Assembly (NCBI RefSeq): GCF_030503595.1
Contig: NZ_CP129966.1
Span: forward strand, 310,001 to 374,000
Length of the DNA stretch: 64,000 nucleotides
Origin: Corynebacterium sp. P4-C1
Lineage (GTDB): Bacteria; Actinomycetota; Actinomycetes; Mycobacteriales; Mycobacteriaceae
Direction of reading: 5' to 3'
The notes beneath the pieces were generated by a model, which saw nothing but the letters and a program-made list of their open reading frames with translations, ran no database searches and had not been told where the DNA came from. Made by a program: the position numbers and the translations under genes. Positions 10,787-18,235 of the stretch are shown here, in pieces; within the stretch, counting starts at the first letter, position 1; every line of letters begins with the position of its first letter.

Positions 10787-11367
10787 ATGCGTTTGAAGAA
10801 AGCTTTAATCCTCCCTCTAGCTGTTTCTACCGCTCTCGTCGCATTCCCTGTTGCTACGGCCAGCGCAGCTCCTGCCACTCAGGAGGGGGAGTGCGTCGAG
10901 ACTCACCAGGTTCCCTCTACTCTCGGTGCAGACCGAGAGACTGTTTCGGAAAATGACCTCAAACAAATCAATGAGGATATCGAGTCCGCGGGTGGTTCCC
11001 CCCCTTGCCTGCGGGAACAGTTGAGTACGGGTTCAACGCTGATGGTGACGCGGTAGCCATTGACTCCAATGGTCGGGAAACAGTCTTGTCTTGAGCAAAG
11101 AAGATGGATGTTGAGCTGAATTCAGTACTAGTCCAGACTAGGGCCGCAGAGGACCAAGACGATAAGGGAGTTCTTAGCGCAACTGCCACAACCATTGCTG
11201 GTTGTGCAGGTGGTGTAATCGGTTACGATACAATCCTGGAAATTTTAGAGAAGAGGGTTTCCTACTGGGCCTTGGTAAAGTTCCTCGCTAAGAAAATTGG
11301 ACTAGGACTTGCGATCAGCTGCATTTCCGGTGCAGGTGGCGCCCTTGCCACCTACATGGGGTGGTAA
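10787..11367 (+). pseudogene. Bacteriocin-like secreted precursor, broken by a C-tract frameshift and an in-frame TGA
   Basis: ATG at 10787 has AAAGGA 8 bases upstream and starts a clear Sec signal peptide (MRLKKALILPLAVST, cleavage near ASA-AP). A polar propeptide follows with VSENDLKQINEDIESAGG. A run of seven C at 10998-11004 throws the frame to a stop at 11056; one extra C would continue into LPAGTVEYGFNADGDAVAIDSNG. A TGA at 11092 then interrupts (TGG, Trp, would read through), after which the frame runs to 11367 with a hydrophobic Gly-rich C-terminus (CAGGVIGYD...GLGLAISCISGAGGALATY). The restored protein would be 193 aa. Layout parallels the intact gene at 17064. Function is inferred, not recognised by homology. 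Confidence 0.6.
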
Positions 11368-11370
11368 AAA

Positions 11371-11562
11371 ATGCGCTCATTGGTAACAATTTGCGGATTT
11401 TTAGTGGCACTTGGCATATTTCATTTTTACACTGATATGCCTTGGTTCCCTTCTGTGTTCTTTGGAGGCATCGCTGGGCTTATCGCAGGTGTAGCTCTGA
11501 CAGAATCCGGGCGGCAGGCAGCCCGTCGAATTGTGTATAATCTTTTTCAGGGATGGTCCTAG
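11371..11562 (+). CDS. Small two-helix membrane peptide, possible immunity protein
   Basis: 63 aa, starting 3 bases after the stop of the broken precursor. Two hydrophobic segments (about 4-20 and 27-43) around a loop with MPWFPS, then a basic tail (GRQAARRIVYNLFQGWS). The loop and second helix resemble HWPSWVMYAF... in the 46-aa peptide at 16896, which sits in the same place behind the other precursor. A tiny membrane protein behind a secreted hydrophobic peptide is the usual place for bacteriocin immunity; this is inference. Confidence 0.55.
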   Translation: MRSLVTICGFLVALGIFHFYTDMPWFPSVFFGGIAGLIAGVALTESGRQAARRIVYNLFQGWS

Positions 11563-11663: not shown

Positions 11664-12869
11664 GTGATTTCTTTGGAACAATGGGCACAGATCCGATACC
11701 TGCGTGGGCAGGGTTTATCGATACGCAAGATCGCCAACGAGGTTGGCTGCGCGAAGAAGACTGTCGAGCGGGCACTGGCTTTGGATTTGCCTCCGAAATA
11801 CCCGCCGCGTCGGGCTAAAACTACGAGTTTCGATGCTTTTGAACCACAAGTACGCGCGTTGCTTGCTGAAACTCCACGTCTTAACGCAAAAGTCATCGGA
11901 CAGCGCGTTGGGTGGACTGGGTCAGAATCGTGGCTGCGCAAAAACATTGCCCGGATCCGACCCGAGTATCTTCCCGCAGACCCCGTGGACACTCTCACCC
12001 ATCTTCCCGGGCGTGAAATCCAGTGCGACCTGACCTTTGCCGCCGGCGGGTTGCCCGATGCAAGCGGTGTGCCCCGAGCATTCCCGGTGTTGGTGATGGC
12101 GGCATCGCGTTCCCGATTCGCCGCTGCCTGTCTGCTTCCGACTCGTACAACTGATGATCTGATAGCTGGGATGTGGCAGCTCATCGAGCGTGACTTCAAA
12201 GCCGTGCCCGACCGGCTGGTATGGGACCGGGAAGCTGGCATCGGTAAGGCCCGCCTGTGTGAGCCAGTCGCTGCGTTCGCCGGTGCAATCGGCACCAAGA
12301 TCGTCCAGGCCCCGCCGAGAGATCCGGAATCGAAAGGCATCGTTGAACGCACCAACGGCTATATGAAGCGCTCCTTTTTCCCAGGCCGGCACTTCAGCAA
12401 CCCGCAGGATGTGCAAGACCAGCTCGATGAATGGTTTAGCACCGTAGCCAATACCCGCACCCATGCCACGTTGAAAACCCGCCCGATCGATCTGTTTCGC
12501 ACCGACCAACAGTCCATGCGTCCACTTCCGCCGTATACCCCAACGATCGGGATCCGTCCTGCGGTACGCCTGCCACGCAACTACTACATCACCGTCGACA
12601 CCAACCAATACAGCGTCGACCCCGCCTTCATCGACAGGCTCGTGACCGTGCGCACCTGCCTAGAAGAAATCACTGTCACAGGACCATCCGGCGAAATCGC
12701 CGCCTGCCACCGGCGTTACTGGGGAAAACACCACGTCATCACCGACCCTGCCCACCGACACGCCGCACGACGCATGCGACAGCTAAACACCGGACCCCAA
12801 CGACACACCCACACACCAGACAACGACGTAGAGGTAGCCGACCTAGCCATCTACGACTCAATCGCTTAG
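11664..12869 (+). CDS. istA: IS21-family transposase IstA
   Basis: 401 aa from GTG at 11664. N-terminal HTH (IRYLRGQGLSIRKIANEVGC), then a DDE integrase core: QCDLTF for the first Asp, VWDREAGIG for the second, and PPRDPESKGIVERTNGYMK containing the Glu. The C-terminal domain with NYYITVDTNQYSVDP is typical of IstA. The frame is intact. It is followed after 26 bases by istB. Confidence 0.93.
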   Translation: MISLEQWAQIRYLRGQGLSIRKIANEVGCAKKTVERALALDLPPKYPPRRAKTTSFDAFEPQVRALLAETPRLNAKVIGQRVGWTGSESWLRKNIARIRPEYLPADPVDTLTHLPGREIQCDLTFAAGGLPDASGVPRAFPVLVMAASRSRFAAACLLPTRTTDDLIAGMWQLIERDFKAVPDRLVWDREAGIGKARLCEPVAAFAGAIGTKIVQAPPRDPESKGIVERTNGYMKRSFFPGRHFSNPQDVQDQLDEWFSTVANTRTHATLKTRPIDLFRTDQQSMRPLPPYTPTIGIRPAVRLPRNYYITVDTNQYSVDPAFIDRLVTVRTCLEEITVTGPSGEIAACHRRYWGKHHVITDPAHRHAARRMRQLNTGPQRHTHTPDNDVEVADLAIYDSIA

Positions 12870-12895
12870 CCCCTCAAAGAAGATTGGATTCGACT

Positions 12896-13678
12896 ATGCC
12901 CCACACGCACGCCCACGACACCCAAGCAACGATTGCGCACCTATCACAGGCGCTGAAAGCCCCACGTATCAACACCGTTTACGCCACCATTGCTGAACAA
13001 GCACGCGCAGAATCGTATACCTACGAGGAATACCTCGCCGCGGTACTTTCAGTAGAAGCCACCGCACGCGCTGAATCCGGAGCGCGCCAACGCGTTAAAC
13101 GAGCCGGTTTTCCAGCAGTCAAAACCATCGCCGATTTCGACTTCGGCGCCCAACCCGGCATCGACCGCGCTGACATCGCCCGACTAGAAACCGGCGCCTA
13201 GGTCGCAACCGCTGAAAACGTCGTCCTTCTAGGCCCACCAGGCACCGGAAAAACACACCTCGCTACAGCCCTAGGCATAACCGCTGCTCAGCAAGGCTAC
13301 CGAGTACTGTTCGACACCGCCGCAGGGTGGATCAACACACTCACCGAGGCACACAACACCGGACGACTCGAATCCGTACTCAAACGCCTAAGCGGATACC
13401 ACCTGCTCATCATCGACGAACTCGGATACATCCCCGTCGAGGCAGACGCAGCAAACCTCTTCTTCCAACTCGTCTCACGCCGATACGAACACGGATCCAT
13501 CATCGTCACATCCAACCTGGCCTTTTCCCAATGGGCCCAATGCTTCGGAGACGTCACCGTCGCAACTGCCATGGTCGACCGCATCGTCCACCACGCAAAA
13601 ATCTTCCAACACCGAGGAGTAAGCCACCGCATCAAAGGCCGCGAACTCACAACACCACAAACAAATCAGGCACAATAA
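12896..13678 (+). pseudogene. istB: IS21 helper ATPase IstB with in-frame amber stop
   Basis: ATG at 12896 opens IstB (about 100 residues including RQRVKRAGFPAVKTIADFDF); TAG at 13199-13201 stops it just before the ATPase core. The same frame then continues with [17 protein letters not shown] (Walker A), LLIIDELGYIP (Walker B), VTSNLAFSQW and VDRIVHHAKI up to TAA at 13676. No frameshift is needed, so a single codon change separates this from an intact 260-residue IstB. It is either a recent null mutation or needs nonsense suppression. Confidence 0.88.
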
Positions 13679-13804
13679 CTACGACCACACTGGGCTACTT
13701 TTCAAAGAGCACTCACATGGGGGTGCAAAACACTCGCACTATGAAAAGGTTGGTGGGTTCACTCGAGCACTAAGCGGCGTGGGTCCGCCAACTATATAGG
13801 CCGT

Positions 13805-14428
13805 TCAGAATGAGAGCGCTATGAGCTCTGCCCTGGATCTGCAGTCCATCTTCTTCAGCAGGGAAGACACCATTCTTTTTACGTGAGGCTCCGAGTAGAA
13901 CAACTCGTTCGCTATTTGCCTGTTACTTTTTCCTTGGCACAGCAATTGCATGACGGCTTCCTCGTTATCGGTCAAGGAGGCTTGCTCTATTCGTTCGGCG
14001 AAACGCCCCCATGAGGATTGGGCAACTAACCGTTTCACACATTGAGGTGAGAGACTGGTCCCTCCGTTGAGTGCATCCCTGAGCGCCTGAATGATTATCT
14101 GCGGTGGTTGGCCTTTAATGACGTACCCGGACACCCCACGCGCAAGAGAGGTAATCATCGTATCGTCAGTGTCGTAGGCTGTCATCACGACAAAGACTGG
14201 TGGGGTATCGAAACTATTCAACTTTTTCAGCAGTTCGATCCCATCCATATCGGGCATACGTACATCAGACAATACGATGTCGCAGGTGTGATTGTTGAGC
14301 CATGCCAGTGCGCTGCGCCCGTTTGCGGCAGTGGCGATAACTTCTAGGTCTGGAACTTTAGAGAAGTAAACCGGAAATGATTCACGGATTACGGGATCAT
14401 CATCAACAAGCAGGATCGTGAAACTCAC
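13805..14428 (-). CDS. NarL/FixJ-type response regulator
   Basis: 207 aa. Receiver domain: acidic pocket VDDDP (residues 9-11), phospho-acceptor Asp55 in LSDVRMPDMDG, Thr in MTAYD and Lys in GYVIKGQ. The C-terminal LuxR-type HTH (about 150-207) has LTDNEEAVMQLLCQGKSNRQIA and VKRMVSSLLKKM. I choose GTG at 14428 because it overlaps the TGA of the upstream peptide gene (GTGA), which gives translational coupling, rather than a longer start at 14440. Partner of the kinase at 14610; probable targets are genes of the neighbouring secreted-peptide cassette (inference). Confidence 0.88.
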   Translation of the reverse strand: MSFTILLVDDDPVIRESFPVYFSKVPDLEVIATAANGRSALAWLNNHTCDIVLSDVRMPDMDGIELLKKLNSFDTPPVFVVMTAYDTDDTMITSLARGVSGYVIKGQPPQIIIQALRDALNGGTSLSPQCVKRLVAQSSWGRFAERIEQASLTDNEEAVMQLLCQGKSNRQIANELFYSEPHVKRMVSSLLKKMDCRSRAELIALSF

Positions 14429-14592
14429 TTGCTGCACCAAGGGTGTGTTTGACCCTTACTGCACCCCAGCCAGTCCTTAATAGACTGATACGTTTGGATC
14501 ACTGGTTCACCCTCAGTGGGAGGTGCCTCGACTGTTGGGAGGGGACTTGCCGTAAGGCCAACGGTGAAGATTAGAGAGGCCAACATTTTCAT
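14425..14592 (-). CDS. Small exported peptide with two cysteines, between kinase and regulator
   Basis: 55 aa from ATG at 14592 (GAAAGG upstream; 17 bases after the kinase stop). Short hydrophobic signal (MKMLASLIFTVGLTASP), Pro/Glu-rich linker (VEAPPTEGEP), then a compact end containing WLGCSKGQTHPWCSK. The two Cys, 8 residues apart near the C-terminus, could form a disulfide ring. Its stop overlaps the regulator start (GTGA). A tiny exported peptide inside a two-component operon is where a pheromone or sensing accessory would lie; I recognise no family. Confidence 0.6.
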   Translation of the reverse strand: MKMLASLIFTVGLTASPLPTVEAPPTEGEPVIQTYQSIKDWLGCSKGQTHPWCSK

Positions 14593-14609
14593 ATCAATTA
14601 CGGGACCTT

Positions 14610-15788
14610 TCAAACGGGAACCTGGAAAGTAATCGTCCAGCGGGCATTAGTGCTATCCAGTGTCATGCTTCCACCTACGATAGCAATCGTTCGCTGCATG
14701 GAGGCTAGACCGAAATTGCTGGAGCCAGCTCGCCCACGGCCAAGCCTATAGGTGTTGACGAGAGTCACCATGACTTTTTCGGTATTTGCAGTCGCGGTGA
14801 TACTAACGGTGGAATAAGGGACGGCATATTTGATGATGTTGGCACTAGCTTCAGATAGGCACTGACTGAGCGCCCTATTGATAGACTCCGCGCCAGGATC
14901 CACACGAATAGTCGTGGAGCTCTCAACGTGAAACCCGGCCTCCTGAAGTGCACGGGCAGTTTGCGTCACTGTCATTGTTAGTGCCGGTACGGTCACCTGC
15001 GGATGATCAATTGCCTGGGCATTGAGCTCATCTACCAGCGTGCGGATGTCACTCATTGACTTACGCGCTGTGGCGGCACACCGCTGTAGAGCTTGCTCGT
15101 TCTCCGGGATGTAGATCGCCAGTGCTTCAAGTCTTGCTATCAGCGCGGTTAAATCAGCAGCCACCATGTCATGAAGAAATCCCGCTACCTCTACCTGACG
15201 TTGGCGCATCTGGTACCTCTGTCGCATCTCCTTGGTGCGCAACCTAACGATAAACCACCCGGCGGCAAAGGCGCTGACCATCATGAGAGTAAAGATGGTT
15301 ACAGACTGTGGATCCATACTCAACGACTTTTGATCCGGGGAGTAAAACCCGAGCAGCGTCGTAATAGCAGCAAAGACCACAGCAGTCTTGTACCTGTGTT
15401 GCGCAGTAACAACCGTAACCAGCAGAACCGCCGTCAATGTCAACAGATCGGGCGAATGACCAGACAAGGTAACGACCGCGAACAATACGAGATATCCCAA
15501 AACTGCAGCAGTAGGAAGATACACCGCCAGAGGCAGTGTAGCCACTAAAAAGAAGAATAAAACCCCTGTACCAACATCGACAGGAGCGATCACAAGCACA
15601 CGCAAGCCCCACAAAACAAGGGCGAGCAGACACAGCACCAGTGCTATTGATAGGCGATAAGAACGAAAAAAATTAACAAACACATTGAATACCAATGGCT
15701 CTATCGACGGAAAACATAAAAGAACAGTCAAGCATGAAGGGCACGGTTCACCCCAACACCCAGTTTCTGAATGCCCAACTGCCGACAA
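14610..15788 (-). CDS. Two-component sensor histidine kinase (HPK7/NarX-like)
   Basis: Up to 392 aa from TTG at 15788, which has AGGAGG 12 bases upstream; GTG at 15683 just before the first helix is an alternative. Five to six membrane segments fill residues about 45-180 with almost no extracytoplasmic domain, so it may sense signals in or at the membrane. The phospho-acceptor His206 lies in VAGFLHDMVAADL (HisKA_3 type). The HATPase part has SEASANIIKYA (N box) and FGLASMQRTIAIVGG (G box), but the usual DxGxG is replaced by VNTYRLGRGRAGSS, a degenerate ATP lid. It is followed by the exported peptide and the response regulator. Confidence 0.85.
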   Translation of the reverse strand: MSAVGHSETGCWGEPCPSCLTVLLCFPSIEPLVFNVFVNFFRSYRLSIALVLCLLALVLWGLRVLVIAPVDVGTGVLFFFLVATLPLAVYLPTAAVLGYLVLFAVVTLSGHSPDLLTLTAVLLVTVVTAQHRYKTAVVFAAITTLLGFYSPDQKSLSMDPQSVTIFTLMMVSAFAAGWFIVRLRTKEMRQRYQMRQRQVEVAGFLHDMVAADLTALIARLEALAIYIPENEQALQRCAATARKSMSDIRTLVDELNAQAIDHPQVTVPALTMTVTQTARALQEAGFHVESSTTIRVDPGAESINRALSQCLSEASANIIKYAVPYSTVSITATANTEKVMVTLVNTYRLGRGRAGSSNFGLASMQRTIAIVGGSMTLDSTNARWTITFQVPV

Positions 15789-15816
15789 TAGAGGTCTTCC
15801 CCTCCTGGGAGGTGAT

Positions 15817-15951
15817 CTACTTCAAGGGTTTGGGAAGTCGCCGATCGTTCCACGGGGGCATCCCACAGCGTTTCCCTATCTCACCAGTGGTATCGAAGCC
15901 AGTGCCGAGGGCAAGACTCCAGACGAAAGATAGAACGCCATTGAGGACCAT
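15817..15951 (-). CDS. Possible 44-aa peptide upstream of the sensor kinase
   Basis: ATG at 15951 to TAG at 15817, one moderately hydrophobic stretch (VLSFVWSLALGTGF) and a charged tail. No clear ribosome site; coding potential uncertain. It could also be a decayed gene fragment. The rest of 15789-16083 shows nothing else I can support. Confidence 0.25.
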   Translation of the reverse strand: MVLNGVLSFVWSLALGTGFDTTGEIGKRCGMPPWNDRRLPKPLK

Positions 15952-16083
15952 TCCCACACACGCCCGAGTCCCACTACGTTGGTCACGACTGCACCCAGGC
16001 CGAATACTTAATCGAGCGCGATGAAACGTGCGGATGCTTACTCCAAAACTGGAATTGTCGCGGTTTTAGCCGGGAGGCGTGGT

Positions 16084-16830
16084 CTATCTCCGACAGGGTC
16101 CACCTGCCCTTTTGTGCACTGTGTCAACATCGCCCGACTTGGCACTGTCCAACAACGAAATCGGGGTTACAGTGGACACGCTAGCACCATTTCCACCTTG
16201 CCCCAGTGCCACCAACCTTCCGGATGAAGAGTAGATGGGGGCGCCGGACTCGCCTGGCGAAAGTCGTAAGCTTGAGGACTGGACGTAAGCAAACACTGGT
16301 TGGCCATTCAACAAAAACCGTTGACACGAGTATTGTTCGGAGATCAGTTCTCCGGACTTTTTCTGACCTTCGTGATCGTTGGCAAACACAACGGACTCTT
16401 GAGGGTGTTCTTCCACTTGCAGCGGCCTTATCTGGTCCCCTACGCTGGGGTGGAGTGCGATTTCTGCTATGTCGAGACCCAAGCCGTTGAGCAGATAGTT
16501 TGTCGAAATGGTTCCTATTTTATTTCCGTGGGAGAAGACTTCTGCCCCCTCTTCTCCACAGTGGCCTGCTGTTAAACCAGTTGTCATAGAGATATAGGAG
16601 ACAGAGCAGTCTATGGAGCCATTGGGCCACCACACTTGAATATCGTCCCCGCTGGAATACCTGGGGCCTGACTGCGCGGAGTCGCCTGGGGGATGGTCAA
16701 TATAAGGAGTCTCTTGAGGGGTAATCGTGGATGCTGTCGAGTTTGTTTGTGGTAAATCCAATGAAGTATATCCGCTGATGAAGGCACTTACAGTGGCAAT
16801 TACACAGACGGCTAATGATTCTCGATACAT
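16084..16830 (-). CDS. Secreted trypsin-like serine protease (S1 family)
   Basis: 248 aa from ATG at 16830 (AAGG 8 bases upstream); an in-frame longer start is ignored because the signal peptide begins here (RESLAVCVIATVSAF). Chymotrypsin-fold triad: His90 in TGLTAGHCG, Asp120 in GLDIAEIAL, Ser195 in SPGESGAPIYS. Four Cys (75, 91, 169 and the tail) may form disulfides. It lies 65 bases downstream of the two-helix peptide and in the same direction as the secreted precursor, so it may be cotranscribed and mature that precursor (inference). Start context and base composition are lower in GC than the flanking core genes. Confidence 0.85.
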   Translation of the reverse strand: MYRESLAVCVIATVSAFISGYTSLDLPQTNSTASTITPQETPYIDHPPGDSAQSGPRYSSGDDIQVWWPNGSIDCSVSYISMTTGLTAGHCGEEGAEVFSHGNKIGTISTNYLLNGLGLDIAEIALHPSVGDQIRPLQVEEHPQESVVFANDHEGQKKSGELISEQYSCQRFLLNGQPVFAYVQSSSLRLSPGESGAPIYSSSGRLVALGQGGNGASVSTVTPISLLDSAKSGDVDTVHKRAGGPCRR

Positions 16831-16895
16831 TGCACAAACCTTGTCTATACGACCTCTAGGGGTGACCCGCACGGAGGCCACCCCTAGAGGGTGCC

Positions 16896-17036
16896 CTATT
16901 GGTTGGTGTTGGTTGGAAGGAATATCAACACCAGGGCGATGATGGCAAAGGCGTACATCACCCAACTCGGCCAATGAAACCAAGAGGCTATCGGAATCAT
17001 GATTACCACTACTGAGATCAGAATCTTCTTGACCAT
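16896..17036 (-). CDS. 46-aa two-helix membrane peptide, possible immunity protein
   Basis: ATG at 17036 preceded by GAAAAAGAGAAAGGATCGCTC (a strong AAAGGA site), TAG at 16896. Sequence starts MVKKILISVVVIMIP, a short loop HWPS, then a second helix VMYAFAIIALVLIFL and ends PTNTNQ. It follows the secreted precursor by 27 bases on the same strand. Counterpart of the 63-aa peptide at 11371, which shares the W/F-P-S loop before helix two. Too short for routine gene calling; the ribosome site and membrane pattern support it. Confidence 0.6.
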   Translation of the reverse strand: MVKKILISVVVIMIPIASWFHWPSWVMYAFAIIALVLIFLPTNTNQ

Positions 17037-17063
17037 GAGCGATCCTTTCTCTTTTTCGCTACC

Positions 17064-17747
17064 TTACTGGAAGCCAGCCCGCACAGGCGTGATGCCTACT
17101 GGGTTGACAGGCAAGAGGGCAAATTGAGCATAAGTAAAATCAGCCCAGATACCGCCGGGAGCAACGGCAACTGCAATGCCGAGGGTGGAGACGATCTTCG
17201 ATACCAATGCTTCTGGAATCCAGACTCCTGCGATTGATACTCCTGCGCCAATCCCTTTGAGAGTGCCCTGGGAAATAAATATCTTCACCCCCCACCAGTA
17301 GTACTCGATTCCGTTGCGGCCTGGTTGGAAGAATGGGTCAACCGTGTCACCATCGGTGTTTTCGATGCGTGGACCCGTTGACTGGGAAAAAGCGATGGAT
17401 TTATCATTGACTTTCTTTTCAACCGATGGGTCATTGGTTGAGGAAGCGGACGCGATGGCCGTGTTGGCTTCCTTCACGGACGCTTCGACTTTCTGCAGTT
17501 CATTCGGTGTCAATGCCGACTTGGCTGCGCCGTCGATAACGAACTGATCTTCTTGAGTGGAGATAAACCGGTCTGCTTTTTCGCGCGTCGCCGCATCAAC
17601 CTCGGAGTTATCGGCCACGGTGGAAGTGAGCGAAGGAACATTATCGGAACTGGCGGGTGTGGCACTGGCCAGTGGAACACCGGCGAGAACGATGGTCGAC
17701 AGTGAAGCAAGGACAACGCCTGAACGGATTTTCGGTCGGATGGTCAT
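17064..17747 (-). CDS. Secreted bacteriocin-like precursor protein
   Basis: 227 aa from ATG at 17747, chosen over a start 21 bases upstream because AAGGAGA lies 5 bases before it. Sec signal peptide (residues 1-30, ending PLASATPAS), then a long polar propeptide (about 31-140) with LTPNELQKVEASVKEAN, and a distinct C-terminal part (about 145-227) rich in Gly, aromatic and aliphatic residues: GIEYYWWGVKIFISQ, IGAGVSIAGVWIP, TLGIAVAVAPGGIWADF. No cysteine. This organisation resembles large-precursor unmodified bacteriocins whose toxic part is the hydrophobic C-terminus; I recognise no named family. Two-helix peptide and secreted protease follow on the same strand. Confidence 0.6.
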   Translation of the reverse strand: MTIRPKIRSGVVLASLSTIVLAGVPLASATPASSDNVPSLTSTVADNSEVDAATREKADRFISTQEDQFVIDGAAKSALTPNELQKVEASVKEANTAIASASSTNDPSVEKKVNDKSIAFSQSTGPRIENTDGDTVDPFFQPGRNGIEYYWWGVKIFISQGTLKGIGAGVSIAGVWIPEALVSKIVSTLGIAVAVAPGGIWADFTYAQFALLPVNPVGITPVRAGFQ

Positions 17748-17880: not shown

Positions 17881-18235
17881 TCATGGCTGTTTTGGCTTCG
17901 TGACAAGGCGGCTACGCGCAGCACCGCCGACCAGACCTCGCACTTTGTTCACCGCTATGCCCGCCGAGACTTGACCCCATCTGCTGACTCCGGCATCGCA
18001 GGCGATCTCGGTTAGTGACCTCGTGGAGGTCACGTATCGGTGAAACGCTTTGAAGTCGCGGGTTTTAGTCAGATCAGGCCGACGGTAGGTGGTGGAAAAT
18101 CCACAGTCAGGGTTCTTGCACCGCCATCTGGTCGTTCCTTTTGTGGTGGTGCCGTTTTCTTCATTTGCCCAGTACATACTGGGCATCGTGGTCTGTTTGG
18201 TGTCACCGGCAAAGCTAACCAGCATCCAGCTACCA
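17881..18235 (-). pseudogene. IS1249-like (IS256-family) transposase remnant
   Basis: Two frames carry the N-terminus of an IS1249-type transposase: RCPVCTGQMKK in one and, after a one-base shift, TTRWRCKNPDCGFSTTYR, then RDFKAFHRYVTSTRS, LTEIACDAGVSRW in the other (zinc-finger plus HTH). After VSRW the sequence diverges (GQVSAGIAVNKV...) and stops; the DDE core is missing. It is a truncated, frameshifted fragment with no inverted repeats identified. Confidence 0.75.

Follow-up and report, generated by a model that had tools for sequence, protein, structure and literature searches.

A stretch of 64,000 nucleotides (nt) from Corynebacterium sp. P4-C1, hereafter the window (positions 310001-374000 of contig NZ_CP129966.1, the only contig of a 2.31-Mb genome), carries 6 genes, all on the minus strand at 13805-17747, that group into 2 modules. 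Module A encodes a Sec-exported precursor, a 46-amino-acid (aa) two-helix membrane peptide, and a secreted S1-type serine protease, and module B a multi-helix sensor kinase, a 55-aa exported peptide with 2 cysteines, and a LuxR-type response regulator. We propose, with a probability of about 0.6, that an effector and a signalling module are joined at this locus, the sequence patterns pointing to a peptide-pheromone two-component system that would drive exchangeable bacteriocin cassettes. The evidence consists of gene order, recurrence of the pairings, purifying selection acting on the tail of the peptide, and a palindrome shared by regions upstream of sister cassettes. An earlier interpretation made from the letters of the window alone (the sequence-only reading) had described a bacteriocin-like precursor exported by Sec, accompanied by a small membrane partner and an adjoining two-component system, and this outline stands; coordinates, domains, and recurrence in other species indicate that its 6 open reading frames (ORFs) are real and lie on one strand where it placed them. 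The gene orders are also beyond chance, the module A trio being repeated in 2 other species and the order kinase/cysteine peptide/regulator in many.

A candidate pheromone is encoded between kinase and regulator across Corynebacterium

The sequence-only reading missed that the 55-aa peptide is one member of a family found across Corynebacterium, whose genes lie between those for kinase and regulator. This recurrence makes the peptide a likely pheromone and sets the two-component system apart as a module of its own. Kinase homologs (E <= 1e-15) were found at 79 places in 75 of 242 genomes of the genus, and 73 of these places, the window included, were examined (G183, G099, G164, G178, G064:C90, and G115 were left out). 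A strict test, which required a short ORF that begins with a hydrophobic stretch, carries C-x(3-9)-W-C at its end, and lies no more than 450 nt after the kinase, detected such a peptide, here called a WC peptide, at 53 of the 73 loci, compared to 9 of 6513 ORFs elsewhere; 7 of the 9 background matches look like displaced relatives. The gap from Cys to Trp was 7 residues in 48 of the 53 peptides and 6 residues in the other 5. Adding 5 looser cases (L107, in which the last Cys is replaced by Ser, L110, L116, L142, and L145) and the 7 displaced ones gives 65 of 73 loci, with none at the remaining 8. By the strict and the looser count, respectively, an exported peptide gene accompanies a many-helix kinase/regulator operon, an arrangement typical of peptide-pheromone two-component systems, at 53 and 65 of these loci. 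Outside Corynebacterium, no WC peptide was seen at the 23 kinase places read of 32 (about 1.5 kb on either side), and a search of plasmids with the 55-aa peptide returned 2 weak partial matches only.

The domain assignments of the sequence-only reading are borne out by Pfam: the kinase matches HisKA_3 (6.6e-6), with HATPase_c below the cut-off, and the regulator carries Response_reg and GerE domains. The genes for the regulator and the 55-aa peptide overlap by 4 nt.

A second kinase/WC peptide/regulator operon lies elsewhere in the same genome (562008-564261; L185 4008-6261), with a 76-aa peptide ending NCGGTIAQLWCKK. At L085 (3474-3623) the operon is duplicated and the second WC peptide is without the tail cysteines; it is perhaps a decaying pheromone. 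Among the neighbours listed, core WC operons (L115, L125, L131, and others) adjoin, by eye, infC-rpmI-rplT-like and pheS-like genes, and several secreted proteins of 190-430 aa lie beside them, which are likely the core regulon of the same signal.

Selection and covariation point to the tail of the WC peptide

We compared 15 hand-picked pairs of related loci and found a ratio of nonsynonymous to synonymous change (pN/pS) of 0.14 for the tail versus 0.53 for the N-terminal part, a value that may be too high as this part was aligned without gaps. Between the window and its nearest relative, G033, the tail shows 0 amino-acid changes against 0.62 synonymous changes per site. The substitution pattern indicates that the tail is under purifying selection and is the working part of the peptide.

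Tail distances were also correlated with those of the membrane part of the kinase once kinase core and regulator were removed (Mantel test, 48 loci; r = 0.27, p = 0.0005), and the partial values were -0.01 (p = 0.56) for the kinase core and 0.10 (p = 0.08) for the regulator. Mantel tests leave some shared ancestry, so that this covariation is support and not proof; it would be indirect evidence that the peptide acts on the kinase from outside.

Sister kinases adjoin other cassettes, several with a shared palindrome upstream

In a tree of the 73 kinases, the window falls in a 13-row clade with support 100/98. Its nearest kinase (G033, 72% identity) closely follows genes for a Sec precursor of 192 aa and a membrane protein of 96 aa. 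Over a 74-aa stretch, this precursor shares 51% identity with what we take to be the sequence of closticin 574. Other precursors with membrane proteins occur at clade loci L078, L081, L082, L083, and L085. An automatic call placed cassettes at 7 of 13 clade loci compared to 3 of 58 others (Fisher p = 1e-4), under a definition that was set after examples were known, missed L078, and includes L084, where the 320-aa product is a less clear case of a precursor.

A rare 14-bp palindrome, TATnnN4nnATA with complementary arms, recurs at clade loci. The 73 loci (737,755 nt) contain 9 copies, 7 of them within the 191,047 nt of the clade. Of the clade copies, six precede precursor-like genes by 79-137 nt (L078, L081, L082, L083, L084, and L085), and the seventh (L080) precedes a called 82-aa gene by 272 nt. 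When all loci were resampled with the dinucleotide steps preserved, 2, 0, 0, 4, and 0 copies were counted. Among hand-chosen upstream regions, the palindrome was present in 7 of 14 for precursors, including that of G002, which belongs to the window's own precursor family, and in 0 of 8 for kinases. Seven precursor regions were reached in 0 of 2000 resamplings (maximum 3), for a motif chosen after some of these regions had been viewed.

Relatives of the closticin-like G033 precursor are also found on plasmids of Staphylococcus, Priestia, and Bacillus (H20-H27), all annotated as hypothetical.

The precursor family recurs with a small membrane partner

The window precursor is 100% identical to one in Corynebacterium sp. 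p3-SID1145. At E <= 0.01 it matches 13 of 242 Corynebacterium genomes (own genome and weak matches counted), 4 of the 396 genomes sampled from the phylum (again counting its own), and 7 plasmid records (4 from Listeria, 1 each from Lactococcus, Mammaliicoccus, and Corynebacterium); the Mammaliicoccus relative in turn matches 5 Listeria phage records. We inspected 14 distinct loci: the window, G002, G145, G003, G195, G064, G063, the G042 plasmid (pCE3 of C. efficiens), G636, plasmids of Listeria seeligeri, L. monocytogenes, Lactococcus, and M. sciuri, and phage A500. Left out were the weak matches G199, G198, G095, and G120 (E 4e-5 to 9e-3, with in-frame stops), G447 and G358, the same-species copies G183 and L016, duplicate Listeria plasmids and phages, and viral contigs L052-L056. 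Three loci were counted despite defects: the G003 precursor (L032) is divided between frames, and those of G064 and G063 (L034, L035), whose ORFs begin without a clear signal sequence, are possibly damaged. Signal sequences were called by eye and with a crude script rather than SignalP.

The pro-region was acidic in 11 of 11 precursors measured (isoelectric point, pI, 4.1-4.8). The C-terminal domain was basic in 8 (pI 8.2-10.9; 74-93 aa with 7-12 aromatic residues), the others being L034 (pI 6.8), L030 (5.7), and L031 (5.1), where for the last two the script took an earlier motif and a longer stretch. The boundary between the two parts is a conserved G-x-x-x-[IV]-x-[FY], GRNGIEYYWWG in the window, near which we infer the cleavage site, and Gln is the last residue in 9 of 9 aligned chains.

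A hydrophobic peptide of 46-68 aa follows the precursor on the same strand at 13 of 14 loci, and in M. sciuri a 53-aa hydrophobic peptide lies beside it on the opposite strand. The sequence-only reading would have given way had homologs of the precursor mostly lacked the membrane peptide or the protease. It held for the membrane peptide (14 of 14 loci, 13 downstream and 1 on the other strand) and did not for the protease, found at 3 of 14. We consider it probable that the precursor is a bacteriocin and the 46-aa peptide its immunity peptide.

No Pfam or NCBIfam family matched the precursor or the 46- and 55-aa peptides, searches of PHROG and PDB gave no credible match to the precursor family, and scans of viral contigs with three other precursors yielded no full-length relative. 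Three candidate relationships were rejected. An SSL13-like match of phage gp27 covers residues 2-82 only and was read as the signal region. NF053514 (BLB8/JUQZ-1) scored 16 bits in the signal region of one member and 14.3 bits in another against a curated cut-off of 40, with 0 of 3 records above it and 11 of 14 control genomes also matching below it. Homology to propionicin F was not supported, at an hhalign probability of 2.5%.

In Listeria phage A500 (L039 3959-4796), gp27 and the next 60-aa gene form a precursor/membrane-peptide pair in the endolysin-attP interval, a possible phage-borne bacteriocin. The 2297-bp M. sciuri plasmid (L017) has two annotated genes only, one of which is the precursor, and pCE3 (L046/L047) carries an unannotated precursor that spans the record ends and has a 49-aa peptide behind it.

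A secreted protease accompanies the precursor at three loci

A protease of this kind follows the precursor and membrane peptide in the window, G002, and G145. The catalytic triad named in the sequence-only reading (His90, Asp120, Ser195) is unchanged in 3 of 3 aligned proteases and, with similarity to Trypsin_2 (E 4.1e-5; 24.8 bits, hence below the cut-off of 27.6), places the enzyme in the S1 (trypsin-fold) class. At all three loci the gap between membrane peptide and protease genes holds a strong hairpin, with T-rich tails behind it in G002 and G145, which suggests that the hairpin may lower protease expression. The proposal that a secreted S1 protease matures the precursor as a general rule fails, since an enzyme present at only 3 of 14 loci cannot have that role throughout. 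The absence of an export ATP-binding cassette transporter was confirmed among the ORFs of 13.8-17.8 kb.

Locus layout and a second cassette

The features of the locus are listed in Table 1. Sites resembling promoters and terminators in the window deviated from the shuffled mean by no more than about 1-2 standard deviations. Insertion-sequence remnants, recognised by eye (IS21-like and a transposase fragment), lie on both sides of the 6 genes, at 11664-13680 (+) and 17881-18225 (-).

Table 1. Features of the two modules and of the second cassette (window coordinates).
Feature	Position	Strand	Basis
Precursor of 227 aa, exported by Sec: signal, acidic pro-region, and (about residue 143 onward) basic hydrophobic C-terminal domain	17064..17747	-	homologs
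46-aa two-helix membrane peptide, putative immunity peptide	16896..17036	-	counterpart at 14/14 loci examined
Strong hairpin, gap between membrane peptide and protease genes	16853..16890	-	same gap in L030, L031
Secreted S1-type serine protease, 248 aa, candidate maturase	16084..16830	-	gene order shared by G002, G145
Multi-helix sensor histidine kinase, HisKA_3 type, TTG or nearby GTG start	14610..~15695	-	Pfam
55-aa exported two-cysteine WC peptide, tail DWLGCSKGQTHPWCSK, candidate pheromone	14425..14592	-	Corynebacterium-wide counterparts
LuxR/NarL-type response regulator	13805..14428	-	Response_reg + GerE
Second Sec precursor, other family, broken frame (pieces 10787-11056 and 11104-11367)	10787..11367	+	ORFs, homologs
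63-aa membrane peptide after second precursor	11371..11562	+	ORFs, homologous loci

An 87-aa piece of the second precursor matches 9 of 242 genomes of the genus, one match being an open frame of 222 aa with 86% identity; intact copies exist in other genomes. A hydrophobic peptide of similar size follows it in 7 of 7 homologous loci read. This second cassette may be under the same regulon.

Relation to known systems

The logic of module B is that of ComX-ComP-ComA and of the three-component regulation of class II bacteriocins, in which a pheromone gene lies by a many-helix HisKA_3 kinase and a LuxR-type regulator and the system drives secreted products. Unlike the ComX type, WC peptides have a Sec signal and a two-cysteine loop, their gene lies between kinase and regulator, and the operon showed no modifying enzyme or exporter.

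The window precursor has the features of Sec bacteriocins of the PAMP/closticin 574 type, namely a signal, a long pro-region, and a hydrophobic C-terminal domain. PAMP of Propionibacterium jensenii is described as a 198-aa precursor with a 27-aa signal from which proteases release a 6383-Da C-terminal fragment (PMC5756557). By description, PAMP/propionicin SM1 resembles our precursor in its Sec signal, length of about 200 aa, and, if our proposal holds, active C-terminal fragment released outside, whereas the available part of that account names no dedicated protease or pheromone circuit (PMC5756557). Closticin 574 of Clostridium tyrobutyricum is given, in the section available, as a 309-aa pre-protein with a 27-aa signal and an 82-aa mature peptide, which a general or specific proteinase releases outside the cell (PMC10888436). 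The window precursor shares this architecture but appears to belong to another sequence family and contains no cysteine downstream of the signal. Two antibacterial proteins exported by Sec, geobacillin 26 and alicyclobacillin 24 (238-245 aa, with a transmembrane stretch at the C-terminus), are described as active without a released fragment, unlike what we propose here; the word "immunity" is absent from the available text on geobacillin 26 (PMC13176240).

Proposed mechanism and alternative explanations

In the mechanism that we propose, Sec would export the precursor as a pro-protein whose acidic pro-region masks the basic, hydrophobic, aromatic C-terminal domain. The precursor would be cut outside the cell, here probably by the adjoining secreted S1 protease, and the freed membrane-active domain of about 9 kDa would attack the membranes of related bacteria, with the 46-aa two-helix peptide shielding the producer. 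The WC peptide would also be exported by Sec, its cysteines forming a small disulfide loop ending Trp-Cys; as it accumulates, it would be sensed by the membrane helices of the kinase, and the regulator would then turn on the bacteriocin cassette. Antibacterial activity, immunity, cleavage by the S1 protease, peptide-kinase binding, and control of the window precursor are what we infer from the sequence patterns. We give even odds to a wider version, in which Corynebacterium has genus-wide pheromones with a C-x6/7-W-C disulfide loop, each with its own kinase and regulator, as core copies and as an accessory clade that would drive Sec bacteriocin cassettes via a palindromic operator, one of them with a maturing protease.

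Several observations weigh against the proposal. Module B lies directly beside the window's precursor family at 1 of 14 loci, the window only; cassette calls are rare outside the kinase clade; the palindrome is absent upstream of the window and G033 precursors and of the second cassette (10787-11562); the protease is confined to its three loci; an AlphaFold model of the precursor (5 rows) was unusable (mean pLDDT, the predicted local confidence score, 30); and the insertion-sequence remnants could have joined the modules. It is doubtful, though, that modules A and B are neighbours through insertion-sequence shuffling only, with the regulator not controlling this precursor. The flanking remnants, the lone juxtaposition, and the missing palindrome would fit such an origin, whereas sister kinases, the 72% relative included, adjoin other Sec precursors, and the palindrome is common to six sister upstream regions and to that of the same-family precursor of G002. 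In the putative recognition helix, the regulators of the window and G033 are unlike the others, a difference that could explain the absence of the palindrome at both. G002 yielded no kinase having the membrane part of the clade, and a DNA motif common to the regions upstream of the window and L077 precursors was sought and not found. The protease may also not be the maturase, general extracellular proteases cutting the precursor and the S1 enzyme serving otherwise, an alternative that we place somewhat below even odds. The enzyme is absent from 11 of 14 precursor loci, and weaker homologs occur in G009, G021, and G123, genomes without a precursor match. The S1 pocket position before Ser195 differs from trypsin's Asp, so the cleavage site cannot be guessed. 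Set against this, the protease directly follows precursor and membrane peptide at all three loci, with the hairpin in the same gap.

Two further alternatives concern the peptides themselves. The WC peptide could be a periplasmic partner of its own kinase, as a redox switch through its two cysteines or as a stabiliser, and no cell-to-cell signal. Its cysteines fit a redox switch, 1-2 residues often trail the loop as in a fixed structural element, and, among the neighbours listed, most WC operons occupy core chromosomal places away from bacteriocin-like cassettes. We find this unlikely, given that WC peptides have a signal sequence without a membrane anchor, that the loop residues vary between species within a constant C-x6/7-W-C frame, and that the tail covaries with the membrane part of the kinase. 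Less likely still is that the precursor family is not antibacterial, being a secreted membrane-active or surface protein of another role with the small partner as an assembly helper. The annotations seen for the family (hypothetical proteins, a phage gp number, and, in a phage record, one evidently wrong ATPase name) leave room for such a role. Precursor and two-helix peptide, however, travel as a two-gene unit on small plasmids and phage, an acidic pro-region stands ahead of a basic hydrophobic domain, and the architecture is common to PAMP and closticin 574.

Novelty and significance

Judged by titles in the accessible literature, which covered few subscription papers, we recognised no description of the WC peptides or of this precursor family. 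The logic of the system is known; its parts and their combination appear new. In the parts available, LuxR-type and REC domains are all that a 2016 review of quorum sensing in actinobacteria names for Corynebacterium (PMC4748050), and a 2025 genome-mining study of respiratory corynebacteria reports lactococcin-972-like class IId bacteriocins and standard types of ribosomally synthesised and post-translationally modified peptides (PMC12188740). Peptide quorum sensing is barely documented in corynebacteria, and the system described here would, if confirmed, be a new form of cell-to-cell signalling in this genus. For each of many species the predicted signal is a short peptide that can be synthesised, which opens the circuit to direct test. 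The precursor family, without a name in the libraries searched and present on plasmids and phage of other Gram-positive bacteria, may yield narrow-spectrum antibacterials.

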